64,000 nt of DNA from Hypericibacter adhaerens. GTDB taxonomy: Bacteria; Pseudomonadota; Alphaproteobacteria; Dongiales; Dongiaceae. Of this stretch, positions 33,711 through 50,857 are shown in pieces. The position numbers and the translations under genes were made by a program. The stretch covers positions 3,832,217-3,896,216 of the forward strand of contig NZ_CP042582.1 in NCBI RefSeq assembly GCF_008728835.1, read 5' to 3'. The notes under the pieces were generated by a model, which was not told where the DNA came from, did no database searches, and worked only from the letters and a program-made list of their open reading frames with translations. Numbering within the stretch: position 1 is the first letter of the stretch; every line of letters starts with the position of its first letter.

Positions 33711-34046
33711 GTGGATATTTCCGTCTATCTCCGCTTCATCCTGGCGCTGGCCGGCGTCCTCGCGCTGATCGCGATCGCCGCCTTCATCCTCAAGCGCGCC
33801 GGCTGGGGCGGCATGCGCATGAGCAAGGGCGGGCAGAAGCGCCTCGCCGTGACCGCCGCGATCGCGCTCGACGGCCGCCGCCGGCTGGTGCTGGTAAGGC
33901 GCGACGAGACCGAGCATCTGCTCCTGATCGGCGGCCCTGCGGATCTGGTGGTCGAAAGCGGCATCGCGCCGCGATCCTCGGGTTTCGAGAAGGCGCTCGA
34001 TGCGGCGGGGCGGCCCTCTTCCGGCGCGCCCGCGGGCGCAGCATGA
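33711..34046 (+). CDS. fliO: Flagellar biosynthesis protein FliO
   Basis: The 111-residue protein has one N-terminal membrane helix (about 7-29) and a small cytoplasmic domain with [23 protein letters not shown], the FliO pattern. FliO assists assembly of the FliP ring of the export gate. It starts with GTG, the only candidate before the helix, and its stop overlaps the fliP ATG. The tail is Ala/Gly/Pro-rich. Confidence 0.88.
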
Positions 34047-37087: not shown

Positions 37088-39361
37088 TTAATCCATCGGA
37101 TGCCGGAAGGGCGTCGGGTCGAGGAAGCGGCGCAGCACGTTCTCCGTCACCTGCGAGACATTGTTGCGGCAGCCGTTGAAGGTGAGGCTGCCGATCCAGG
37201 CGATCGAGCCGGTCGAGAAGACCGCGCCGCCCGACGAGGTCTCGTAGAAGGTCATGTCGGCCCGCACATCCGGATTCTGGGTGCCGTCCATCGCGGCGTT
37301 CGCGTTGTTGATATGCTCCGGCGAGGGGAAATAGGTGTCGGAATGCCCCTCCGACGACGCGACCACCAGCACGTGGGCGGGCGAACCGTTCGCCTTGTCG
37401 CAGCGGTCGAGCTCGATGCCGGCCGCCCCGCCGCCCACCGTGCCGAAATCGCCGATGATCTCGTCGTCAATGCCGGCGAAGATGAAGGCCGCGCGCGGAT
37501 CGCGGCTCCCCGCCGTGCGGCGGTAATAGGAGCTGACATCGAACCCTTGGGCCGCCATGTCGACGCCGGCGAGGCCGGCGATCGGCCGGCCCATGCGGGA
37601 CCACATGCCGCCATATTCGCCGGTGAAGCTGTGGTAGTACTCGCCGCCCTCCGCGACCCAGTCGCGGATGCCGTCTTCGGTGCGGCGCAGCTCCATCACG
37701 CCCGGTAGCGAGCGGTGGAAGGCGACGCGCCAATAGAAGCCGTTGCCGCCCAGATAGATCAGCCGCCCGCCGCGGCCGAGATGGGTCTCGAGCGCCTCGT
37801 ACATCTCCTTCGAATAATATTCCGGATGGCTGCCGGTGAGGACCGCGCGATGGCCGGCCAAGGCCGGATATCCGCCCTCGTGCAGGTCCTCGTCGGTGAT
37901 CACGTCATAGGGAATCGATTTCGCCTCGAGCCAGGAGATCAGGGCGAGATCCGCGTTGAACTGCCAGGGCGCGCCGCCGTCGGAACCGATCCAGGAGTTG
38001 GTGATGCCGGGCCGGAAATTGAGGATCGGCCGCAGCCGCGAGCTGTAGCAGACGCCGCTGCCGTCGCTATGGACGTCATAGAGCGAGCCGCCGACTTCGG
38101 GATGATCGTTGAGCCAGAGATCGGTCGGCCCGAACGAGGTCAGGTGGTTGGCGAAGGCGTGGAGCTTGCCACCGCCTTCGAGCCCCGCCCGCTCGTTGGC
38201 ATAGGCCAGGTAGCTGGCGGTCGGCAGCAGAACCAGCGTATCGGCTGACTTGGCGCCGAGCGCCGGGCGGACGACGAACGGGACATAGTCGGTGTCGCCC
38301 TCGCCCGTGAGCTTCGCGGCATAGATGCCGCTCGGCAGCGAGGCCGGAACCGTCAGCGCGAAATCGGTCTCCCACCCGGCGTCATAGAGATCATCCTCGT
38401 GGAAATGGATCGCGCCATATTGCTCCGGCGCCCCCTTCCAGTCGAATTGGGTCCCGTCCCAGTTGAAGCCTTTCATCGCACGCGCCGGCAGGTTCACCAG
38501 CGTCCCATCGCGGCGATCGGCCGAGAGGTCGAGGATCCGGTCGGTGGTCATCTCCTTCGAGAAATCCCAGGCGCCGCGCAGATGGCCCGGCAGGCTCGCG
38601 GGCCGATGCAGCGCCTCCATCTCGGCGCGGCTCAGGGCGCGGTCGGAGAGACGCAGGCTGTCGATCTTGCCGTTGTAATGGCCAGTGGCGATGGCGGAAC
38701 CCTGGCCCCGCCGCGCGAGCGAAGCTGCGATCAGCAACGGCGACCCCGGCTCAGGCCGGGGGACGACGGACAGCGTGGCCTCTTTGGCGAACGGCGCCGG
38801 ACTCCAGCCCGTGCTGGCCGCGCTGTCCTGGTGCAGCCTTACCGTGCGTGTCGCCGCGTCGTAAGCGGCGGCGACAAACGTCCAGTAGCGGAGGGGCAGC
38901 GGTCGATCCGTGCCGACCCGGGCAACACCCGTTCCGTCGCCGGCCTCGAAGCCGAGAGCGCCCTTTTCGTCCAGCACCAGCGCAAAGCCGCGCCGGGACG
39001 TCTCGATCCAGCGTGCGGCGACCACCTGCCGGCGCCCGTTCGCCAAGGTCGGCCAGACCCAGGCCTGGATCGTGAAGCTCTCCAGCGTGTCGAGCCCCTC
39101 GACCGCGGTGACGATGCCATAGGAGCCGGCAGGGAGCGGCTGATGCCGCCCGGCATAGTCGCCGGTGACCGCCGTCTCGACCGGTGTCTCGATGAAGCCG
39201 AGGCCTTGCAGATGATGATCGCCCGAGATCAGCTTCACGATCTGCGCATGATAGCGCGCGATGCCATCGGACGAGACCTTGAACTCAATGGCCTCGCCGG
39301 GCCGCGCGCTGTGGCGGTCGGCATAGCCCACCAGCCGCTTCTTCGGCAGGACGGCGCTCAC
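37088..39361 (-). CDS. N,N-dimethylformamidase large (beta) subunit-like protein
   Basis: The 757-residue protein is close in length to DmfA2, the large subunit of N,N-dimethylformamidase. Its first half contains a concanavalin/LamG-like beta domain (FTIQAWVWPTL, RYWTFVAAAYD); its second half is amidotransferase-like, with SYLAYANERAG, YSSRLRPILNFRPG, LTGSHPEYYSKEMYEAL and LGGNGFYWRVAF. Known DMFases bind one iron through two Tyr and one Glu; suitable residues exist, but I cannot assign them safely. The start is GTG at 39361, overlapping the small-subunit stop as GTGA. The true substrate may be another small amide. Confidence 0.85.
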   Translation of the reverse strand: MSAVLPKKRLVGYADRHSARPGEAIEFKVSSDGIARYHAQIVKLISGDHHLQGLGFIETPVETAVTGDYAGRHQPLPAGSYGIVTAVEGLDTLESFTIQAWVWPTLANGRRQVVAARWIETSRRGFALVLDEKGALGFEAGDGTGVARVGTDRPLPLRYWTFVAAAYDAATRTVRLHQDSAASTGWSPAPFAKEATLSVVPRPEPGSPLLIAASLARRGQGSAIATGHYNGKIDSLRLSDRALSRAEMEALHRPASLPGHLRGAWDFSKEMTTDRILDLSADRRDGTLVNLPARAMKGFNWDGTQFDWKGAPEQYGAIHFHEDDLYDAGWETDFALTVPASLPSGIYAAKLTGEGDTDYVPFVVRPALGAKSADTLVLLPTASYLAYANERAGLEGGGKLHAFANHLTSFGPTDLWLNDHPEVGGSLYDVHSDGSGVCYSSRLRPILNFRPGITNSWIGSDGGAPWQFNADLALISWLEAKSIPYDVITDEDLHEGGYPALAGHRAVLTGSHPEYYSKEMYEALETHLGRGGRLIYLGGNGFYWRVAFHRSLPGVMELRRTEDGIRDWVAEGGEYYHSFTGEYGGMWSRMGRPIAGLAGVDMAAQGFDVSSYYRRTAGSRDPRAAFIFAGIDDEIIGDFGTVGGGAAGIELDRCDKANGSPAHVLVVASSEGHSDTYFPSPEHINNANAAMDGTQNPDVRADMTFYETSSGGAVFSTGSIAWIGSLTFNGCRNNVSQVTENVLRRFLDPTPFRHPMD

Positions 39362-39672
39362 GACAGCACCTCCCCCGTCTGCTGCTGCCAATGGCGCTTG
39401 AAGACCTCCCACTCGGCCTCCGCGGCATTGGTGAAGGTGACACCGGGAACGAGCGTGACGGGGGCGCCGCGCTTCGGCGACTTCCTCGCGAGCGCCCATT
39501 TCCGGAACGGCTCGAGGCAGACCAGCACGAAGACCTCCTCGCCCTGATGGCTGCGCATGCGGTTCAGCATCACGCGCAGCGCCGGGCTGTGCGGCCCGAA
39601 CAGATGCTGGCGGAACTCTTCCGCCAGCTCCCTGCGGAACAGATGGCGATGGGACGGGGCATCAAGGCTCAT
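39358..39672 (-). CDS. N,N-dimethylformamidase small (alpha) subunit-like protein
   Basis: This 104-residue protein precedes the large subunit with a 4-nt overlap, as expected for an alpha/beta DMFase pair made in equal amounts. The helical N-terminus (RELAEEFRQHLFGPHSPALRVMLNRMR) and the sequence FVLVCLEPFRKWALARKSPKRG resemble small subunits, though it is shorter than the roughly 130 residues I recall for DmfA1. GAGGAG 9 nt upstream supports the ATG at 39672; an upstream TTG at 39693 is in frame. Confidence 0.72.
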   Translation of the reverse strand: MSLDAPSHRHLFRRELAEEFRQHLFGPHSPALRVMLNRMRSHQGEEVFVLVCLEPFRKWALARKSPKRGAPVTLVPGVTFTNAAEAEWEVFKRHWQQQTGEVLS

Positions 39673-41399: not shown

Positions 41400-44300
41400 T
41401 CAGCCGCCCGCGATGGCCGTCGCGGGCGCGGTGCTCGGCGCCTGGCTCGTATTGGGCGCGGTCGCCGCCGCGCCGCCATCGCCGTGCTTCGCCTTGTAGT
41501 CCGACATGAAGCTCTCGAAACGCGCCACGGCGGCGAGCTTGGTAGCGAGGAGCGCGTTGGGGTCGCTCTCGGGGTCCGTCAGCATGGCGAAGGTCTGAGC
41601 CTGCGCCGTCTCCTTCATCGCCGGCCCCAGCGCCTGCCTCAGCTCGGCGAGCTTGAACTTGTCGCCGGCGAGCGACCAGGCGATCGCCTCGGCCACGCCC
41701 CACTCGGCCTGATCGGGGGTGAGAAGTTGGGCGTCGGCATCGGCGAGCAGATGGTCGAACTCGCGTGCCGCCGCGGCCCATTCCTTGAGCTCCCAATAGA
41801 TGCGGGCCTTGAGCTTGCCCGCCTCGGGGTCCTGGTCGTTCGCCAGGAGCGCCACGGCCTCGAGGCTGCGGCCGGCGCGGTGCAGCGCCTGCGCCTCGAC
41901 GCGGCGGCGCTCGGCCGCGAGATCGGCCGGCAGGTCGGGCCCGCCGCTCTCCTTGAGCGCGCCGAGCGCGCCTTCCGGATCGTCGTCGAGGAGGCGCACC
42001 TGGGCCAGCTTCGCGCCCACCCGCGCCTTGTCGGCGCCCGTGAGCTTGTGGCGGACCTGATCGAGCAGCACGGCATCGGCGCGGTCGAGCAGGTCGATAT
42101 CGATCATGCGGTCGGCGAGCGCCATGGCGACGGCCCCGCCCTCCGCACCCGGCGGCGTCAGCTCGCTGAACTCGCCATAGAGCGAGATCGCCTCCAGCGG
42201 CTTCAGCTTCCTCGCGGTCCCGCCGAGGAAGGCGTCGCGGAAGCCCTGCGTCATGTCGGCCATGACCTTGTCGAGATCGCGATGCTGCGGGAAATGGCTC
42301 GCGAGCTGGCGCAGCAGCCCCAGGCCCTGCCGCGGCCGGCCGTCGGCCAGATAGAGCTCGCCCAGCCGCTTCAGCAGCGGAAACTCCAGCAGGCTGCCGC
42401 GCGTGGCGAAGCGCAACGCCTCGAGCCGCTTGATCGCCTCGGCGTTGGAGATGGCGCCCGTCTCGCGGGCGAGATCGACGCGCGCGAACTCGGTCCGCGC
42501 CGCCGTGTCGCCGTCGGCCTCCGGCCCGACGCGGTCCCAGGCCTCGCCCGCCGCGGCCACGTCGCCCTGGCTGCGCGCCAGCAGGCCCTGGAGGAAGGCG
42601 ATCTTGGCCTGCTGCGCCGGCACCGGCCGGTCCGCCTTGAGCTTGTCGAGCCAGTCCTGCGCGCCGGTCGTATCCTGGGTCTGGATCGCGGCCTCGGCCG
42701 CCAGCGCCTCGAGCTGGAATCGCACGGGTTGCGGATAGTCGGTCACGAGCGTATCGGCATCCTGGAAGTCGTCGGCGGCCTTGCTCCAATCGCCCTTGAG
42801 CGTCGCGACCGCGCCGCGCCAGGGTTCCGCCTCGACCTCGCCATCGAGCGCATGCTGGTTGAGCGCGGCATCGGCCGCGACCGGATCGCCGGTCAGGAAG
42901 GCGGAAGCCGCCTGCATCAGCAGAAGCTGCGGGTCGAGCAGCGGATCCTGGCGCTCGGTCCCGATCAGATCGATCAGGCCGCCGGTCTCGGCCGCACGGC
43001 CATGGGCGAAATAGAAGCGCGCCAGATCGAGACGCGCCATCTCGCGCTTATCGTCGGAAGCCGCGTCGACCGCGGCCTTGAGCCGGGCCTCGACCGTCGG
43101 GAAATCACCCTCGTCCTCGCGCCGCCAGGCGGGAAGATCGAACAGCCGCTCGCTCGCGGCCGGCCCCTCGGGGTCGGGCGCATCCCCGTTCGCCGCGGCC
43201 GGTTTGGGCGCGTCGGCGATCGATGCCAGGGCGGGATCGGCCGCCGCCGCGATCGCGATGCCGCCGGCCGTCTTCGTCACCTGGAGCCCGTCCTGCTTGG
43301 GCTCGATGGCGATGCCCTGGACCGTCGCCAGCAGCCGGAAGGCGGGCCAGCCCTGCGACGGCACCACACCGAGGCCGGGCTCGGCCGAGGTCACCACAGT
43401 CAGGCGATCGCCGACCTCGGGATCGAGCAACGTCAGCGGATCGCCGGCCGAAATCAGCTTCAGCAGAACGCGCGGCGACGCAGAGGCCGCGTCGGCGGTG
43501 ACGGCGATCGGCGTCGCCGGCCCTTCGGCCTGCGGCCTGAGATCGATGATCCATTTGTTGCCGTCGCGGCGCGGCAGTGCCGCGAGCCCGTTGATCCCGG
43601 TCAGGCGCAGCGTCGCGGGCATGCCGCCGATCTGCATCGCCCTGCCGATTGAAGCGGGGCCGATCGGGGCCGGCGTCGACAGCGCCGAGAGATCGAAACG
43701 CGCCGCTTGATCGAACACCAGCCAGAGCGCGCCGGAACGGCGGAAGATGGCGAGGCCGGTCGGCACGGCCCAGGGAAACTGCAAGGAGGGGCCGTCGCCG
43801 GTCCGATCGACCGCGACCGCCAGCAGCGGCGCGTTCGGATCGAGCGGCGGCGGCGCGACCACGGGCACGTCGTCATCGTCGGGCGCGGCATCGGCATGAG
43901 CCGGGGCGGGCGAGGTCGTCGAGGCGCCGTTCAAGAGATCGGCCGCCGTCATGGCATTGGCCGGCAGGAGCGGCCGGGGCTTGCCGCCATCGTTGGGCGC
44001 GGGCGTGCCGACGGCAGCGGCCGGCGGTGTCTGGGCCGCGGACGGGGTGGCCGCCGTCGGGGCCGTCGGCGTCGCGCTGGCGGCGCTTGCCGCAGCCGCA
44101 TCGCCGCCCTTCGCGAGATCGAGCACCAGGCGCGGACCGTCGCGGAAATCCTTGATCGCCGTGCCGGGCATGAGGCTCAACGCCAGGACCGGCTTGGACT
44201 CGCTGCCATCCGCATGAAGGTCCTTGAGCGGAGCGGGCCAGGAGCGGACCGTGCCGTCGAGCGCCAGGCGCGCCGGCGCGTCGATCAAGAGCCGCGCCTC

Positions 44301-44954
44301 GTCGCCCTGCCGCTCGAGGCGATAGGGAACCGGCGCCGGGAAATCGAGCACGAGCCGGGTAAAGCCGTCATGCTGCCCGAAACGCAGCTTCACCACCGGC
44401 GCGGCGGTGGTGGCGTTGGAGGGCGGCGGCTGGATGGCGGCGGCGGCCGCTTGTGCCGGCGCGACTGGCGGCGGTGCCGTCGCGGGTGCCGGTGTCGGCG
44501 GGCTGGTCGAAGAGAATGCAGCCGGCGGCGCGGCCGGTGCCGGAGCGGCCGCGGGTGTGGCCTTGGCGAGGGCCGGCGGCGTCCCGAAGAGATCGAACGC
44601 CACCTTGGTGCCGTCCTTGAAGCTCTTGAGCGTCCAGGGGCCGGTCAGGTTGAGGACGAGCCGACGGTCGGTCTGCTCGGCGATGCCGACGATATAGGGC
44701 GACAGCAGCGACAAGGCACGGTCGGTCGCAAAGCCGGCAGGGCGGTCGAACTCGATCACCAGCTTCTGGCCTTCGACCTTCGCGCTGTAGCCCACGGCGG
44801 TGGTCCAGTCGAAGACGAGGCGCCCGAAGCCCTCCTTCTCATGGACCCAGCCGCGCGTGCGGATCGTCTCCTCGGCGCGCGCGCCGGACATCGCGACCAG
44901 GGCCGCCAGCATGAGGGCCGTCAGCACGACGGCGATGCGCTGCGAGAGGGTCAT
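41400..44954 (-). CDS. Large periplasmic protein with AMIN-like and TPR-like regions
   Basis: The 1184-residue protein has a signal peptide (cut near SGARAEE). Three AMIN-like beta segments follow: about 35-125 (EGFGRLVFDWTTAVGYSAK), about 190-280 (DGFTRLVLDFPAPVPYRLE), and a weaker one about 385-480. They are separated by Ala/Pro-rich linkers. From about residue 620 on, helical TPR-like repeats fill the rest. AMIN domains target proteins to peptidoglycan or septal sites, and TPRs bind proteins. It overlaps the preceding MotB-like gene by 4 nt and is last in the cheY-cheZ-motB-motB run, so an envelope scaffold for the motor is a reasonable inference. Confidence 0.8.
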   Translation of the reverse strand: MTLSQRIAVVLTALMLAALVAMSGARAEETIRTRGWVHEKEGFGRLVFDWTTAVGYSAKVEGQKLVIEFDRPAGFATDRALSLLSPYIVGIAEQTDRRLVLNLTGPWTLKSFKDGTKVAFDLFGTPPALAKATPAAAPAPAAPPAAFSSTSPPTPAPATAPPPVAPAQAAAAAIQPPPSNATTAAPVVKLRFGQHDGFTRLVLDFPAPVPYRLERQGDEARLLIDAPARLALDGTVRSWPAPLKDLHADGSESKPVLALSLMPGTAIKDFRDGPRLVLDLAKGGDAAAASAASATPTAPTAATPSAAQTPPAAAVGTPAPNDGGKPRPLLPANAMTAADLLNGASTTSPAPAHADAAPDDDDVPVVAPPPLDPNAPLLAVAVDRTGDGPSLQFPWAVPTGLAIFRRSGALWLVFDQAARFDLSALSTPAPIGPASIGRAMQIGGMPATLRLTGINGLAALPRRDGNKWIIDLRPQAEGPATPIAVTADAASASPRVLLKLISAGDPLTLLDPEVGDRLTVVTSAEPGLGVVPSQGWPAFRLLATVQGIAIEPKQDGLQVTKTAGGIAIAAAADPALASIADAPKPAAANGDAPDPEGPAASERLFDLPAWRREDEGDFPTVEARLKAAVDAASDDKREMARLDLARFYFAHGRAAETGGLIDLIGTERQDPLLDPQLLLMQAASAFLTGDPVAADAALNQHALDGEVEAEPWRGAVATLKGDWSKAADDFQDADTLVTDYPQPVRFQLEALAAEAAIQTQDTTGAQDWLDKLKADRPVPAQQAKIAFLQGLLARSQGDVAAAGEAWDRVGPEADGDTAARTEFARVDLARETGAISNAEAIKRLEALRFATRGSLLEFPLLKRLGELYLADGRPRQGLGLLRQLASHFPQHRDLDKVMADMTQGFRDAFLGGTARKLKPLEAISLYGEFSELTPPGAEGGAVAMALADRMIDIDLLDRADAVLLDQVRHKLTGADKARVGAKLAQVRLLDDDPEGALGALKESGGPDLPADLAAERRRVEAQALHRAGRSLEAVALLANDQDPEAGKLKARIYWELKEWAAAAREFDHLLADADAQLLTPDQAEWGVAEAIAWSLAGDKFKLAELRQALGPAMKETAQAQTFAMLTDPESDPNALLATKLAAVARFESFMSDYKAKHGDGGAAATAPNTSQAPSTAPATAIAGG

Positions 44955-45607
44955 GGCGCGTTCTCGCGGTCGCGCAGCAGGAGCGCGATCTGCGGGCCGT
45001 TGCCCGGCAGGTCGCGCGTCTCGATGGCGCCGACATGGTCGAGCCCGGCATGGGCCAGCGCGTCGGTGAAGGCCTGGCCGCGGGCCAGCGCCGCCCGCCA
45101 GGCGTCCGGCGTGGGCGAACGCGGCGCCGAGACCAGCACCGAGATCGCGTTGGGGACCGTCGCCAGCAGCTGCGCCAGCGGCGCGATGGTCTGGGCCAGC
45201 GCCGCGTCGTCGCGCGCGGCCCCGCTTGCGAACAGGGCGTCGGCCGGCATCGTCATCTGCACGCCGTCCGGGACCCGCGACACCGTCACGGGAAAGCCGA
45301 GCGAGAGGCCGCCCAGCCGTTCGGTCATCAGGGCCTGGAGGTAATTGGCATCGCGCACCTCGGCGAGGGCCGCGGCATTGCGCTCGGCCTCCTTGTCGGC
45401 GCGTTCCTCGGCGGTCATCGCCGCCTCGTCATGGATGGTGACGCCGAAGATCTGCTCCCAGCGCCCGCTTTCGACGCGGGACATGGCGAAAAGCAGCACG
45501 AAGAAGCAGAGCAGCAGGCTCATCAGGTCGCTGAGCGTATAGAGCCAGAGGGTGCGGGCCTGGCCCTTGTTCTCGGTTCCGAATCCGTGGCGCGAGGTCA
45601 GGCTCAT
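44951..45607 (-). CDS. MotB-like stator protein 2, degenerate OmpA domain
   Basis: The 218-residue protein has one N-terminal membrane helix with an Asp at its start (LYTLSDLMSLLLCFFVLLFAMS), matching the proton-carrying Asp of MotB, then a plug-like segment and a C-terminal OmpA-like region. In the latter the usual GHTD motif is replaced (VSAPRSPTPDAWRAALARGQAF), so the peptidoglycan-contacting Asp is not where expected. It overlaps its neighbours on both sides by 4 nt (ATGA type), so it is made together with the other MotB-like protein. No motA is in the window. Confidence 0.82.
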   Translation of the reverse strand: MSLTSRHGFGTENKGQARTLWLYTLSDLMSLLLCFFVLLFAMSRVESGRWEQIFGVTIHDEAAMTAEERADKEAERNAAALAEVRDANYLQALMTERLGGLSLGFPVTVSRVPDGVQMTMPADALFASGAARDDAALAQTIAPLAQLLATVPNAISVLVSAPRSPTPDAWRAALARGQAFTDALAHAGLDHVGAIETRDLPGNGPQIALLLRDRENAP

Positions 45608-46224
45608 GGCGTGGCCTCGCCGCCGAGATCGATGCGCAGCCGCAGCTTGCCGCCGGGGAGAACGCTGTCGATGGCGACGCCGACGCCGCCGCCGCTCATG
45701 CCGGCGGCCACAGTCTCGCCGCCGAGTGCCGCCGCGCGCTGCACCGCCCGGTCGCCGCGCGGGAGCCGGTATTCCAGCCGGTAAGGCGTGCCGCCAGCCC
45801 CTTGGCGGATGACGGCCAGCAGGTTCTTCAGCCGGGCGCGGCCGAGCGCGCCCAGATCGTCCTCGCCGGGCTGGAACAGGCCGTTCTCCGGCAGCTCCAC
45901 CTCGAGACGGTTGGCCTCGCTGGTGCGGCGGATCACGGCCAGAGGCATCGCGTTGGCGATCAGCCCCTGGACCCGGTCCTTGACCAGCCGCAGCTCCCCG
46001 ATGGAACCGGCGCCGTCCTCCATGGTGTCGCTGCCGCGCTCGAGCACGCCGGAGAACTGGTCGGCCAGGCTCGCCATCACCGGCTGCGCGCGGTGCTGCT
46101 CGACACGGGTGGCGCCGGTCAGGAGGATGAAAAAGCAGAGCAGCAGCGTGATGAGATCGGCGTAGCTGATGAGCCAGGGCGGCGTGGTCGGCTGGTAGCC
46201 CTGGCGAGCGCGCCGCAGGGCCAT
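45604..46224 (-). CDS. MotB-like stator protein 1, degenerate OmpA domain
   Basis: From the ATG at 46224 the protein has 206 residues; the frame is open to a TTG at 46335 overlapping cheZ, which would add 37 residues. The membrane helix PPWLISYADLITLLLCFFILLTGATRV is very close to canonical MotB, including the Asp. The C-terminal region has OmpA-like strands (NRLEVELPENGLFQPGEDDL), but no GHTD motif follows, and the last 60 residues are glycine-rich. It is paired with a second, different MotB-like protein directly downstream. Confidence 0.82.
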   Translation of the reverse strand: MALRRARQGYQPTTPPWLISYADLITLLLCFFILLTGATRVEQHRAQPVMASLADQFSGVLERGSDTMEDGAGSIGELRLVKDRVQGLIANAMPLAVIRRTSEANRLEVELPENGLFQPGEDDLGALGRARLKNLLAVIRQGAGGTPYRLEYRLPRGDRAVQRAAALGGETVAAGMSGGGVGVAIDSVLPGGKLRLRIDLGGEATP

Positions 46225-46318
46225 GCGATGCGGGCTCAGAACAGGCGCAAGGCTTGCCGGCGTCAGGGCCGCGGCCGGGCCTGCATTCGAACCGGGACTG
46301 GAGAGAGCGCCCCTGCTG

Positions 46319-46990
46319 TCAACCGAGGCTGGCAAAGAGCGCGTCGATGTCGGCCTGCCCCTTCGCTTCCTGCGGAAGTTGCGGTCCGTTGAGAAGGGCC
46401 TGATCGCCGGTCGCGCCCTGCTTGGTCGCGTCCTCGGAGGCCGCCTTGGCCTCCTTGCGATGCTTGGTCATCTCGTCGCCGAAGGCGGAGAGCAGCGCAT
46501 CCACCTTGGATTCGATGTGCTGCAGCGCCTTCACCACCTTGGAGATGCGCTGTCCGGTGATGTCCTGGAAGTTGCAGGATTCGTAGACCTGCGTGACGGC
46601 CTCGGTGACCTTCTCGGCCACTTCGGGCGGCATCTCGGCGGTCAGGTTCTCGATCTGCTCCACCGCGCCCAGGATGCCGTTGGTCGCCCCTTCGGTGGCG
46701 CCCACGATGGCCTCGAGCTCGTCGGTGGCGGTCGGCAGATGCTGATCGCGGATCTCGTCCGGGCGCAAGCTTGCGATCTCGGACTTCGCCTTCTGGATGA
46801 AATGGGCGAGCTGCTCGAGCTCGGCATAAAGCTTGATGCTCATCGGAGAGAGGTCCCCCTCCATGGTGGCGACGATGCCTTCGACCATGGCCATCAGTTC
46901 GCGCGCATCGAGCGGCTTCTCCTTGCGCTCGCGCTCGACCGTGGCCAGCTTGTCGGCCAGTTCCTTGTCGGCAACCTGCTTGCGTGCCAT
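46319..46990 (-). CDS. cheZ: Chemotaxis protein phosphatase CheZ
   Basis: The 223-residue helical protein has the CheZ active-site motif ESCNFQDITGQRI, with Asp143 and Gln147 in the catalytic positions. It ends with a CheY-binding tail (ADIDALFASLG), like the end of enterobacterial CheZ. It dephosphorylates CheY-P at or near the motor. It lies 16 nt after cheY, so kinase-output protein and phosphatase are co-expressed. Confidence 0.94.
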   Translation of the reverse strand: MARKQVADKELADKLATVERERKEKPLDARELMAMVEGIVATMEGDLSPMSIKLYAELEQLAHFIQKAKSEIASLRPDEIRDQHLPTATDELEAIVGATEGATNGILGAVEQIENLTAEMPPEVAEKVTEAVTQVYESCNFQDITGQRISKVVKALQHIESKVDALLSAFGDEMTKHRKEAKAASEDATKQGATGDQALLNGPQLPQEAKGQADIDALFASLG

Positions 46991-47006: not shown

Positions 47007-47393
47007 TCAGAAATTGCCGAGAATGGTGGTCAGCTTCTGCTTCAGCGTGGCGGCGTTGAACGGCTTCACAATGTAGTTGCTGACGCCCGCTTCCTTGGCC
47101 GCGATCACGTTCTCGCTCTTGCTTTCCGCCGTGATCATGATGAAGGGCAGATCCTTCAGCTTGGCGTCGGCGCGCACCTCGCGCAGGAGCTGGATGCCGG
47201 TCATCGGCTCCATGTTCCAATCCGAGATCACCAGGCTGAAGCCCTTGTCGCGCAGCTTGGCGAGCGCCGCGCTGCCGTCGGTCGCTTCCTCGACATTGTC
47301 GAAGCCGAGCTGCTTCAGCAGGTTGCGGATGATCCGAAGCATCGTCTTGTAATCGTCGACGATCAGGATCGGCATATGCATGTCGATGGACAT
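47007..47393 (-). CDS. cheY: Chemotaxis response regulator CheY
   Basis: The 128-residue single-domain receiver has the acidic pair (IVDDYKTM), phosphoacceptor Asp58 in VISDWNM, Thr88 in MITAES and Lys110 in IVKPF. The partner phosphatase gene follows, and the motor switch gene fliM lies upstream on the same strand. It is the first gene of a cheY-cheZ-motB-motB-AMIN/TPR run, with a CtrA-type box 72 nt before its start. Confidence 0.95.
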   Translation of the reverse strand: MSIDMHMPILIVDDYKTMLRIIRNLLKQLGFDNVEEATDGSAALAKLRDKGFSLVISDWNMEPMTGIQLLREVRADAKLKDLPFIMITAESKSENVIAAKEAGVSNYIVKPFNAATLKQKLTTILGNF

Positions 47394-47512: not shown

Positions 47513-48436
47513 CTATTGCACCGTGGGGGCGCGGCGGGAGGCCAGCTCGACGGTCACGGCCTGGGCCTTGGTGGCGTCCATGGCGGCCAGCACCGGGGCC
47601 AGCTTGGCTTCCTTCATGCGCTCGGCCACCTCGATCAGGACCTCCATCTCGAGGCTGTCGAAGATGCGCGCGGCATCCTTGGGCTTCATGGTCTCGTAGG
47701 TCTTGACCAGGCTCTTGTACTGCGCGTCCTGCGCGTCCTTCTGCTGCTGCAGGCCGCTCTCGATCTGCGCCTGCACCGCCTTGAGCTCGGCCAGCTTCTC
47801 GTCCATGCGCTGCTCGGTCGCGGCCAGCAGGGCCTCGCGCTGGTCGAGCGCCGTCGAGCGCTTGTCGAGCTCGTCGCGCCGCTTGGCCAGATCCTGCAGC
47901 AGCTCGATCTCGCTGTCGGAATAGTTGAACGGGTTGTCCTGGTCGGCATTGTCCGCCGTCGGCTCCGGGGGGGCGGCATCGACGCCGGTGGGCGCCGTGT
48001 CGGCCGACGCCGCCTGGGGCTGACCCAGCAGGTTCTGCTGCGCGGAGCCGTCCGGCGAGACGGGCGGCGGCGAAGGCGCCGCCGTGGGGGTGCCGTTGGC
48101 CGCCGGCGGCGCGGCGGCGGCCGAAGCCGGGGTCGCCGGGGCCGGTGTGGGCGCCGCCGTCGTGGGCGCGGCCGCCGCCGCCATCGTCGTTGCCGGGGTC
48201 GCGGGAGGCGTCGTCGCGGCCGGAGCCGTCGTCTGGCCGGGTGTCGCAGGCGCTGCGGTCGCCGCGGCCGTGGTCGTTGCCGAGGCCGTGGGAGGCGTGG
48301 TCGCCGCCGGCGCGTTGGTCTGGGCTTCGGTCGGGCTGCCGGCCGTCAGCGTCGCGTCCTGCCACATGGTACCGACCCGCAGCGTGAACAGCGCGGTGCC
48401 GAAAAAGAGCAGAACGGGAAGTACGCGCAGTCGCAT
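47513..48436 (-). CDS. motE: MotE-family motor chaperone-like protein
   Basis: From the ATG at 48436 the protein has 307 residues: an N-terminal membrane anchor (about 5-22), a 120-residue low-complexity linker of Ala, Thr and Pro, a coiled coil (about 170-235), and a C-terminal MgtE-N-like domain (KTYETMKPKDAARIFDSLEMEVLIEVAERMKEAKLAPVLAAM). This is the MotE layout; in rhizobia MotE is a periplasmic chaperone for MotC. A GTG four codons earlier is possible. It lies directly after the DUF6468-type gene. Confidence 0.85.
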   Translation of the reverse strand: MRLRVLPVLLFFGTALFTLRVGTMWQDATLTAGSPTEAQTNAPAATTPPTASATTTAAATAAPATPGQTTAPAATTPPATPATTMAAAAAPTTAAPTPAPATPASAAAAPPAANGTPTAAPSPPPVSPDGSAQQNLLGQPQAASADTAPTGVDAAPPEPTADNADQDNPFNYSDSEIELLQDLAKRRDELDKRSTALDQREALLAATEQRMDEKLAELKAVQAQIESGLQQQKDAQDAQYKSLVKTYETMKPKDAARIFDSLEMEVLIEVAERMKEAKLAPVLAAMDATKAQAVTVELASRRAPTVQ

Positions 48437-48499
48437 GAGGAACAGCACTCTCGAGGCTCGAAGCGCCGGCCCCTGGGGACCCGGCGCGGGATTCGGGGT

Positions 48500-49156
48500 T
48501 CAGCGCAGGCCCGCAAGGGCCTTGAGCAGGGCGCGTCCGCTTTCCGGCAGGGTCTCGGCCGGCATCGGCCGGCGCGTCACCGTCGCCGGGCCGCCGCGCG
48601 AGGCGGAGCCGCGCACCAGATCGTTGGGATCGCCCGCGAAGGCCCGCGCCAGCGGCGTCGCCTTCGCGAGATCGCGCGCGGCCATGCGCGGCGTGTCCTT
48701 GGCCGCGGCGCTCTCGCGCGCCTCGGCGTTCTGGGGATGCAGCTCGGCGGCGCGCGGCTCCGTGGCGCGGGTCTCGTTCTGGCGCGCCTCGATGGGGCGC
48801 GCCTTGCCGATGACCGTCTCGAGGCGGTCGGCCGCGGCGGTCGCCCGCCCGATCAGGAACTCCAGATCGTCGGCGATGCCGGCACCCTTCTTGACCTGCT
48901 CCTGGATGACCTTGCCCTCGCCCTCGGCCATCCGGCGCAGCTCGGCCATGGCGCGCTGGGTCTCGGCCGCGGCCCCGGCGAAGCGCTCGATCGCGGCGTC
49001 GAAATGGGTGCGCTCGCGCTTGAGCTCGCCGATCCGCCGGTTGAGCCGCGCCACGAACAGCAGCGTCGCGCCCAGGAGCAGCACGAGCCCGGCATCGAAT
49101 GCCATGGGCAGGGTCAGGAACTTCGCGAGATCCGCGGGGATCGAGAGATCGAACAT
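48500..49156 (-). CDS. DUF6468-type flagellar cluster protein
   Basis: The 218-residue protein has one N-terminal membrane helix (about 19-38) and a coiled coil (LNRRIGELKRERTHFDAAIERFAGAAAETQRAMAELRRMAEGEG). Its C-terminal half is basic and probably disordered. It matches what I recall as DUF6468, a family found after fliM in alphaproteobacterial flagellar operons. The start lies 7 nt after the fliM stop. Function is unknown; a structural role near the C ring or stator is a guess. Confidence 0.78.
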   Translation of the reverse strand: MFDLSIPADLAKFLTLPMAFDAGLVLLLGATLLFVARLNRRIGELKRERTHFDAAIERFAGAAAETQRAMAELRRMAEGEGKVIQEQVKKGAGIADDLEFLIGRATAAADRLETVIGKARPIEARQNETRATEPRAAELHPQNAEARESAAAKDTPRMAARDLAKATPLARAFAGDPNDLVRGSASRGGPATVTRRPMPAETLPESGRALLKALAGLR

Positions 49157-49163
49157 CGATTGC

Positions 49164-50252
49164 CTACCGGTTGCGGTCCTCGATACGGACCGCGATGAGG
49201 TTGCCCTTGCGGCCCATATGGCCGCGGAACATCGGAATGTCGCCGCAGCGCATATGGATGAGCGAGCGGGGTTGGGTGTTGAGCTCGACGCGCGTGCCGA
49301 CCTTCCAGTTCATCACGTCGCCGAGCTGCATGGTGAATTCGTCAAGCACGGCGTCGACATTGATCTCGGTCTGCCAGAGCTCGGTGGTCAGATGGCCTTC
49401 CCAGATCGAATCGCGGCCGAACTTCTCACCCATGAACATCTGCAGCAGGAGCTCGCGCACCGGCTCCAGCGTGGCATAGGGCAGGATCAGCTCGAGCCGG
49501 CCGCCGCGGTCTTCCATGTCGACGCGCAGCCGCGCCAGGATCGCAGCGTTGGCGCCGCGCGCGATGGTGGCGAAGCGCGGATTGGTCTCGAGGCGGTCGA
49601 AGCGGAAATTGACCTTGGAGAGCGGCTCGAAGGTGGTGGAGAGGTCGGCCAGCACCAGCGTGATCATGCGCTCGACCAGGTTGCGCTCGATGGTGGTGTA
49701 GGGCCGCCCCTCGATGCGCATCGCGGCGGTGCCGCGCCTGCCGCCCAGCAGCACGTCGACGATCGAATAGGTGAGCGAGCTGTCCACCGTGAGCAGGCCG
49801 TAATTGTCCCACTCCTCCGCCTTGAACACGCCCATCATCGCCGGCAGCGGGATCGAGTTGAGATAGTCGCCGAAGCGGATCGAGCTGATGCTGTCGAGCG
49901 AGACCTCGACATTGTCCGAGGTGAAGTTGCGCAAGGATGTCGACATCATGCGGACGAGGCGGTCGAACACCACCTCGAGCATGGGCAGGCGCTCGTAGGA
50001 GACCATCGAGCTGTTGACGATCGCCTGGATGCCCGATTCCGCCGCCGCGGCACCGCCGCCGCCGCCGATGCCGAGCAGGCTGTCGATCTCGTTCTGGTCG
50101 AGGACGCGCGTGGAACGCGGCGCGGCGCCGGGAGCCTCGGGCTCCTCTTCCTCCGCCGCCATGTTCTCCCAGGCGGCCGCCGCCGCCCGCTCTTCCTCGG
50201 AAAGCTCTTCGTCGCCCGCGGGCGCGCCGGTATTTTCGTTGGGTTCGGCCAT
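49164..50252 (-). CDS. fliM: Flagellar motor switch protein FliM
   Basis: The 362-residue C-ring protein binds CheY-P through the N-terminal motif VLDQNEIDSLLG. Here that motif begins near residue 50, after an acidic Glu/Ala-rich extension that most FliM proteins lack. The middle domain has the GGxG-type sequence in IVDVLLGGRRG; the C-terminal SpoA domain ends the protein (GTRVELNTQPRSLIHMRCGDIPMFRGHMG). It lies 14 nt after fliL. Confidence 0.96.
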   Translation of the reverse strand: MAEPNENTGAPAGDEELSEEERAAAAAWENMAAEEEEPEAPGAAPRSTRVLDQNEIDSLLGIGGGGGAAAAESGIQAIVNSSMVSYERLPMLEVVFDRLVRMMSTSLRNFTSDNVEVSLDSISSIRFGDYLNSIPLPAMMGVFKAEEWDNYGLLTVDSSLTYSIVDVLLGGRRGTAAMRIEGRPYTTIERNLVERMITLVLADLSTTFEPLSKVNFRFDRLETNPRFATIARGANAAILARLRVDMEDRGGRLELILPYATLEPVRELLLQMFMGEKFGRDSIWEGHLTTELWQTEINVDAVLDEFTMQLGDVMNWKVGTRVELNTQPRSLIHMRCGDIPMFRGHMGRKGNLIAVRIEDRNR

Positions 50253-50266
50253 GATCCGTGACGGTC

Positions 50267-50806
50267 CTACTGGACCAGCATTTCCTTGAACAACACGTCG
50301 TGCACTTCCGCCGGCTTGGCCGCGTCGGCGACGCGTGTCAGCAGTTCCTGACGCAGGCGAAGGATTCCGGCCGAGCCCTGAAGGTCCTCGACCCTGAGCG
50401 CGCGCAGATAGACCTGGAAGCTGTCGACGATGCGCGGCAGCACCGCTTCCACCTGCTTGGACGCCTCTTCATCCTTGAGCTCGAGGCTGACCTTGAGCTT
50501 CAGGTAGCTCGGCTTCTTCCCCGTCGTGACGAGGTTCACGAGCATCTCCGGCATCTCGTAATAGACGGAAGGCTTCGTCTCTTCCGGCTTGGCCTCCGCC
50601 GTCTGCTCGGCCTTGGCGCCGCCGAACAGCCCCATCATGTAGGCGCCCGCCCCGCCGCCGCCCAGAAGCAGCAGCGGCAGCAGGACGAAAAGCACCAGTT
50701 TCTTGCCGCTGAACTTCTTCTTTTTCGGCGCCTCGGCCGCCGCGGCATCGCCCTGCGCTTCGTCGGCCTCGGGGGTCTTCCCCTTGGGTTGCGGAGCCTT
50801 GGCCAT
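50267..50806 (-). CDS. fliL: Flagellar basal body-associated protein FliL
   Basis: The 179-residue protein has a Lys-rich cytoplasmic start, one membrane helix (about 36-58) and a periplasmic stomatin-like domain (YEMPEMLVNLVTTGKKPSYLKLKVSLEL, ending ILRLRQELLTRVADA..VHDVLFKEMLVQ). FliL surrounds and stabilises stators. The ATG at 50806 is preferred; a frame upstream is open for 12 more codons. It is the first gene of the fliL-fliM-DUF6468-motE operon and has a CtrA-type box 51 nt upstream. Confidence 0.93.
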   Translation of the reverse strand: MAKAPQPKGKTPEADEAQGDAAAAEAPKKKKFSGKKLVLFVLLPLLLLGGGGAGAYMMGLFGGAKAEQTAEAKPEETKPSVYYEMPEMLVNLVTTGKKPSYLKLKVSLELKDEEASKQVEAVLPRIVDSFQVYLRALRVEDLQGSAGILRLRQELLTRVADAAKPAEVHDVLFKEMLVQ

Positions 50807-50857
50807 ATGGTGAACCCACCGTGAATTCGTTGACCCCGGCACCCTAGGGAGATGCGG

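Follow-up and report, generated by a model that had tools for sequence, protein, structure and literature searches.

Within a 64,000-nucleotide stretch of Hypericibacter adhaerens DNA (assembly GCF_008728835.1, contig NZ_CP042582.1, positions 3,832,217 to 3,896,216; hereafter the window), we analysed the open reading frame (ORF) P0001, which occupies positions 41400-44954 on the minus strand, starts with ATG and encodes 1184 amino acids (aa). P0001 is very probably a stator-scaffold spoke of the alphaproteobacterial flagellar motor, of the kind formed by MotK, FssB and PflA, with three AMIN-like repeats. It fits this kind because of its AMIN/TPR make-up, its MotE-like neighbour, a distribution linked to that of FliM and the top match of a Foldseek search. 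The gene and the parts of its product are arranged as follows.

41400..44954, minus strand: P0001, putative MotK/PflA-like periplasmic scaffold, 1184 aa (ORF, profile, model and Foldseek)
44874..44954, minus strand: likely Sec signal peptide, residues 1-27 (inspection; helix 2-22 in the model)
44586..44867, minus strand: AMIN-like repeat 1, residues 30-123 (model and hhalign profiles)
44112..44396, minus strand: AMIN-like repeat 2, residues 187-281 (model, profiles and Pfam matches below cut-off)
43536..43826, minus strand: AMIN-like repeat 3, residues 377-473 (model and hhalign profiles)
43245..43502, minus strand: fourth beta domain, residues 485-570, unrelated by profile to the AMIN-like repeats (model and profiles)
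41481..43136, minus strand: predicted TPR-type helical superhelix, residues 607-1158 (model, structure searches and Pfam in relatives)

Comparison of P0001 with Pfam and NCBIfam yielded nothing above cut-off, and no match at all in NCBIfam. Below the curated Pfam cut-off, the AMIN-like family PF24837 (E 6.6e-4) and the AMIN family PF11741 (E 0.0079) both matched best on repeat 2, and TPR models also matched. The AlphaFold2 model, built from an alignment of 25 sequences including P0001 itself (mean predicted local distance difference test score, pLDDT, 79.5; predicted template-modelling score, pTM, 0.49), contains three beta domains that share one topology, the extra beta domain and then 31 helices of at least four residues over residues 607-1158, with low-confidence linkers ahead of repeats 2 and 3 and ahead of the superhelix. 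Using hhalign, we found the three repeats to be mutually homologous (97.6-99.6% probability), and repeat 2 to be related to the AMIN domain of an AmiC-like protein from the same genome (71%, E 3.7e-5); to this domain repeat 1 showed a weak relation (25%) and repeat 3 none (3.7%). P0001 is thus predicted to combine N-terminal AMIN-like domains with a C-terminal TPR superhelix, as in the MotK/FssB/PflA spokes. Its N-terminus resembles a Sec signal peptide by inspection, and hydrophobic N-termini also occur in its relatives. The three AMIN-like segments and the long helical-repeat half that the initial annotation had read from the sequence are therefore borne out by the model and the profiles, both parts being visible there where Pfam matches stay below cut-off, and its signal peptide stands as putative.

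These features recur among the relatives. At least two AMIN-like repeats are present in 97 of 114 scaffold proteins, and a Pfam search of 25 members found TPR_2 in seven and TPR_19 in six; the scaffold alignment (A1) omits two loci with broken or cut genes, L047 and L048. The fourth beta domain shows no profile relation by hhalign to repeats 1-3 or to the AmiC-like AMIN domain, and it is present in 107 of the 114 scaffold proteins, the window included. In a locus from the window's genus (L025), the scaffold gene is followed downstream by a separate frame of 120 residues (positions 550-909) with 81% identity to residues 1076-1184, so that the C-terminal part of the scaffold is repeated there, much like a partial tandem duplication.

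In a Foldseek search against 350,542 PDB chains, the top match of the model was 9hmf_K, from the periplasmic scaffold of the Campylobacter jejuni flagellar motor (E 4.9e-10); judging by chain length and the accompanying paper, chain K is probably PflA. TPR-type structures dominated the matches in this search and in a second structure search with VIA-align. A sequence profile search of the PDB gave 18 matches, which comprised generic TPR proteins, BamD, CpoB, PilQ and one glycosyl transferase, and a tblastn search against plasmids gave two partial matches whose annotation was not useful.

P0001 is the last gene of a run with the order FliL-FliM-DUF6468-MotE-CheY-CheZ-MotB1-MotB2-P0001, which, judged by gene spacing, presumably forms one operon. 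The genes ahead of P0001 are the following.

44951..45607, minus strand: MotB2 (P0002), MotB-like, pore Asp kept and wall-binding Asp lost (Pfam, hhalign and residue columns)
45604..46335, minus strand: MotB1 (P0003), MotB-like, OmpA-type fold, pore Asp present, start codon uncertain (Pfam and model)
46319..46990, minus strand: CheZ (PF04344)
47007..47393, minus strand: CheY (Pfam and NCBIfam)
47513..48448, minus strand: MotE/FlgY/FlbB-like E-ring protein (MgtE_N, NF047368 and alignment with neighbours)
48500..49156, minus strand: DUF6468 protein, conserved in the cluster (Pfam and neighbourhood)
49164..50252, minus strand: FliM (Pfam and NCBIfam)
50267..50842, minus strand: FliL (Pfam)

An ATGA overlap of 4 bp joins the stop codon of P0002 to the start codon of P0001, and a second 4 bp ATGA overlap joins the stop of P0003 to the start of P0002. 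The MotE-like protein matches MgtE_N (E 4.3e-4) and the spirochete model NF047368, collar_FlbB (E 1.5e-7), both below cut-offs, and it aligns well with ten neighbours of scaffold genes from other genomes. As is the case for the known spokes, the gene thus appears to share its flagellar cluster with a homologue of MotE/FlgY, albeit one recognised by models below cut-off.

We compared this arrangement with 113 other stretches holding a scaffold gene, taken from relatives and from a class sample; G059, G065 and G166, whose strong scaffold matches lie at contig ends or are cut, were left out of the count. FliM and MotE occur in the same stretch as the scaffold in 80 of the 113 loci, and both MotB-like genes in 51, so that the arrangement is no matter of chance. 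MotB2 was called in 55 loci, one of them (L082) doubtful, and neither MotB-like gene was found in 58, of which 35 have FliM and MotE in the stretch. The DUF6468 protein is present in 78 of the 80 scaffold loci holding FliM and MotE, and is perhaps an unrecognised motor protein. Among 80 named loci found through FliM, where absences refer to the stretch around FliM, 47 contain the scaffold and the pair, 17 the scaffold without the pair, one only MotB1 and 15 none of these. By record title, the pair is present in all four Thalassospira loci, the Nisaea locus and both Pelagibius loci, and in eight of 12 Azospirillum loci; in the stretches of the other four, scaffold and pair are both absent. Only the scaffold is present in two Magnetospirillum loci and in Dongia deserti. 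Two loci, L203 and L216, encode a FliM with identities to that of the window in the 70s (%), and their record titles, Mesoflavibacter and Anaerolineae, look wrong.

To follow the scaffold across the class, we used one draw of 190 genomes, in which FliM was found in 108, and counted the scaffold as present at E<1e-20. Of 116 genomes matching at E<=1e-3, 105 passed this threshold, the remaining eleven (E 1e-3 to 1.6e-19) being too weak to be scored as present. The scaffold is present in 100 of the 108 FliM-bearing genomes versus five of the 82 others (Fisher p 3e-37; this and all later p values are uncorrected for kinship), by which a kind of scaffold known from few model motors is now traced through most FliM-bearing genomes of the sample, by sequence and not just by structure. 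The five scaffold genomes without FliM (G059, G061, G114, G139 and G166) are all multi-contig assemblies. A MotB1 profile, built from scaffold-adjacent genes and searched genome-wide at E<=1e-24, matched in 49 of the 190 genomes; all 49 have the scaffold, and none of the 85 scaffold-less genomes has MotB1 (p 4e-16). Restricted to FliM-bearing genomes, MotB1 occurs in 48 of 100 with the scaffold versus none of eight without (p 0.007). Conversely, MotB1 is absent from 56 of the 105 scaffold genomes. The scaffold therefore looks like core motor equipment and not like a partner of the pair alone, and the dependence looks one-way, the pair needing the scaffold but not the scaffold the pair. A quick tree of FliM (81 rows, of which 45 have MotB1, counting the window) requires at least 20 changes in MotB1 presence, indicating that the pair is patchy. 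The co-occurrence with the MotB-like pair by which the initial annotation would have its reading judged thus exists, but in one direction only, and its reading is not refuted on this count.

Several observations weigh against the assignment of P0001 to this kind of spoke. The superposition of 9hmf_K on P0001 is poor (TM-scores 0.14 and 0.19, root-mean-square deviation 36.5), and neither 9hmf_K nor any other flagellar entry is among the 50 VIA-align rows listed, which hold TPR-type and other proteins. The structure match consequently leans on the Foldseek rank and the gene setting. No named MotK, FssB or PflA appeared at E<=1 in the PDB sequence search, and these kinds are likened to P0001 by description. 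Likewise, 27 of the 113 scaffold loci have no FliM, MotE or DUF6468 in the stretch, some of them lying on short contigs, and eight FliM genomes have no scaffold at E<1e-20. In five of these eight, FliM itself is divergent (E 1e-16 to 1e-28), and two of the eight, G126 and G152, gave weaker scaffold matches near 1e-13. Finally, a cryo-electron tomography study of 2020 described the Caulobacter motor as having no PflAB-like scaffold, with scaffold-independent stator places (PMC7534056), in conflict with the papers that came later.

It could also be argued that P0001 is a general cell-wall, division or secretion protein that merely ends a flagellar cluster, as AMIN and TPR domains are found in many envelope systems and PilQ, itself an AMIN protein, and CpoB were weak matches in the PDB sequence search. 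We consider this very improbable, because the presence of the gene follows FliM across the class and FliM and MotE accompany it in most loci. A FliO with an AMIN domain exists (PMC12403147); the corresponding reading of P0001 was set aside, a separate short ORF before FliP (33711-34046) being FliO-like by eye.

The role of the MotK/FssB/PflA kind is known from published work. MotK of Cereibacter, described in 2024, has an AMIN-like N-terminus and a TPR-like remainder; rotation depends on it, and MotE and MotB2 are interaction partners (PMC10954123). Deletion of fssB (CC_2058) in Caulobacter leads to paralysed flagella (PMC7885107). PflA of C. jejuni, with structures published in 2025, forms spokes that position stators (PMC12222027, PMC11870540). 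A 2026 review of the E-ring, as MotE-type proteins are termed (PMC13023049, PMC11870540), calls CC_2058 PflA-like and draws the MotK, FssB and PflA kinds together (PMC13023049). The statement of the initial annotation that no described motor part has this architecture is thus superseded by MotK and PflA. By analogy with these relatives, from which its location, contacts and need for rotation are taken, P0001 would be secreted to the periplasm, where its TPR superhelix may extend inward to a ring of MotE that encircles the MS-ring, and its AMIN-like part may extend outward to stator B subunits, to the cell wall or to both. It would thereby keep the stator units in fixed positions about the rotor.

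The MotB-like pair beside the scaffold is an optional, scaffold-dependent add-on, and we consider it the part worth following. MotB_plug (PF13677) matches above cut-off in both P0002 and P0003. In hhalign comparisons, MotB2 is related to ordinary MotB (99.4%) and MotB1 to MotB2 (99.5%), whereas MotB1 is only weakly related to ordinary MotB (68.5%), and the model of MotB1 has an OmpA/MotB-type periplasmic fold. We then examined residue columns, leaving out L082, which aligned badly as MotB2. All 21 ordinary MotB and all 55 MotB2 proteins carry the pore Asp, as against only three of 52 MotB1 proteins. Both window proteins have it; among MotB1 proteins it is kept only in the window, in its congener L025 and in L060 (G055), and Ser, Gly or Ala stands elsewhere. 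The Asp and Arg that make the wall contact in OmpA are both conserved in 19 of the 21 ordinary MotB proteins and in 26 of the 55 MotB2 proteins; in P0002 the Asp is replaced by Pro, while the Arg is retained. An OmpA match in Pfam was obtained for 35 of 55 MotB2 and none of 52 MotB1 proteins, and for neither P0002 nor P0003. As judged from their sequences, neither window protein seems to carry the OmpA-type wall-binding domain with Asp and Arg expected of a MotB. The genome of the window has a single MotA_N match. It adjoins an ordinary MotB whose wall-binding motif is intact, so that no separate MotA is left for the pair in this genome. The pair thus shares with ordinary MotB the MotB_plug segment and the OmpA-type periplasmic fold, and differs in having no motA of its own, in the lost wall-contact Asp of the window's MotB2 and in the pore Asp missing from 49 of 52 MotB1 proteins. 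We found no description of such a pair in the open-access literature, as covered by titles, beginnings of abstracts and passages, which is weak evidence of absence; the MotB passages of PMC12363192 mention none.

What the pair does can be explained in several ways. It is possible, though less than probable, that MotB1 and MotB2 anchor the scaffold in the membrane without conducting ions, in place of PflB/FliL-type rim parts, and are not stators. The loss of the pore Asp from nearly all MotB1 proteins, their OmpA-type fold that no OmpA model recognises and their absence from every scaffold-less genome at the cut-off used are consistent with this reading, but the invariant Asp of MotB2 suggests that proton passage is kept. 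The same asymmetry, together with the adjacency of the genes, the profile relations linking MotB1 to MotB2 and MotB2 to ordinary MotB, and the lone MotA_N match, would suit a heterodimeric B subunit that shares the single MotA and forms a second stator type docked on the scaffold. We regard this as possible but rather doubtful, as a dimer with one Asp may not conduct and the contact with MotA might be absent. On balance, we lean slightly towards MotB1 as anchor and MotB2 as ion conductor. Extended to the class, and more speculatively still, many alphaproteobacterial motors might carry a second, asymmetric stator B module, in which an Asp-bearing MotB2 and an Asp-less MotB1 dock as a pair on the AMIN/TPR spoke. 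There they would either make use of the common MotA, as a unit with one proton site, or serve as fixed dummy stators, the spoke taking over wall attachment. The pair offers a way to test whether a single ion-site subunit suffices for a stator that has no wall anchor of its own and is anchored by a periplasmic scaffold instead.

The initial annotation had suggested that P0001 could anchor or position the stator if the MotB-like proteins have lost wall binding. Anchoring or positioning agrees with the published role of the MotK/FssB/PflA kind, and an AMIN protein standing in for MotB in wall binding is already in print, since PflA is proposed to touch the wall by its AMIN domain while MotB does not (PMC11870540). 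Compensation for the degenerate pair as the reason for the gene fares worse. More than half of the scaffold genomes have no MotB1, 45 of the 58 scaffold proteins without the pair in their locus still have at least two AMIN-like repeats, and in the window's own genome the only MotA is accompanied by an ordinary MotB whose wall-binding motif is intact. As the scaffold occurs in more genomes than the pair, compensation is not supported as the reason for the gene. A compensatory anchor, in which P0001 or its extra AMIN repeats tie wall-binding-deficient MotB1/MotB2 stators to the wall, would nevertheless agree with the overlapping genes (4 bp in the window; in 50 of 54 loci a candidate scaffold start codon lies no more than 20 bp from the MotB2 stop). 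It would also agree with the larger share of scaffolds with at least three AMIN-like repeats beside MotB2 (41 of 56, L082 counted as present, versus 27 of 58 without; p 0.004, uncorrected for kinship). Among loci with MotB2, at least three repeats occur in 24 of 29 with a degraded wall-contact site versus 16 of 26 with an intact one, a difference that is not significant (p 0.13, likewise uncorrected). Against it stand the scaffolds lacking MotB1, the many MotB2 proteins that keep both wall-contact residues or an OmpA match, and the putative nature of AMIN wall binding. We thus consider such an anchor unlikely; the repeat trends beside MotB2 leave room for a lesser version of it, and a takeover by AMIN of the wall binding lost from MotB is a possible but unnecessary assumption.

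Elsewhere in the window, positions 37088-39499 encode an 803 aa protein with a LamG-like stretch, which by eye resembles the large subunit of N,N-dimethylformamidase.

The known systems each share part of the organisation of P0001. MotC of Sinorhizobium meliloti has no AMIN domain according to the review passages, but is likewise a TPR protein and periplasmic partner of MotE, and is called a MotK homologue (PMC13023049). FssB (CC_2058) of Caulobacter crescentus is, by description, a secreted TPR protein beside a MotE-like gene, and the literature passages on it mention no MotB-like neighbours (PMC7885107, PMC13023049). MotK, from the Fla2 system of Cereibacter sphaeroides, resembles P0001 in its signal peptide, AMIN-like N-terminal part, TPR-like remainder and location near motE (PMC10954123). 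Compared by description, it is shorter (652 versus 1184 residues) and has one AMIN-like region instead of three, and its reported neighbours are motE and motA, whereas those of P0001 are the MotB-like pair. PflA of C. jejuni differs in its single AMIN domain, in acting together with PflB, FlgY and a cage and in its poor superposition on P0001 as a whole, yet it shares with P0001 an AMIN-type beta sandwich combined with a TPR superhelix, of 16-17 repeats in PflA, and provides the probable top Foldseek match (PMC12222027, PMC11870540).

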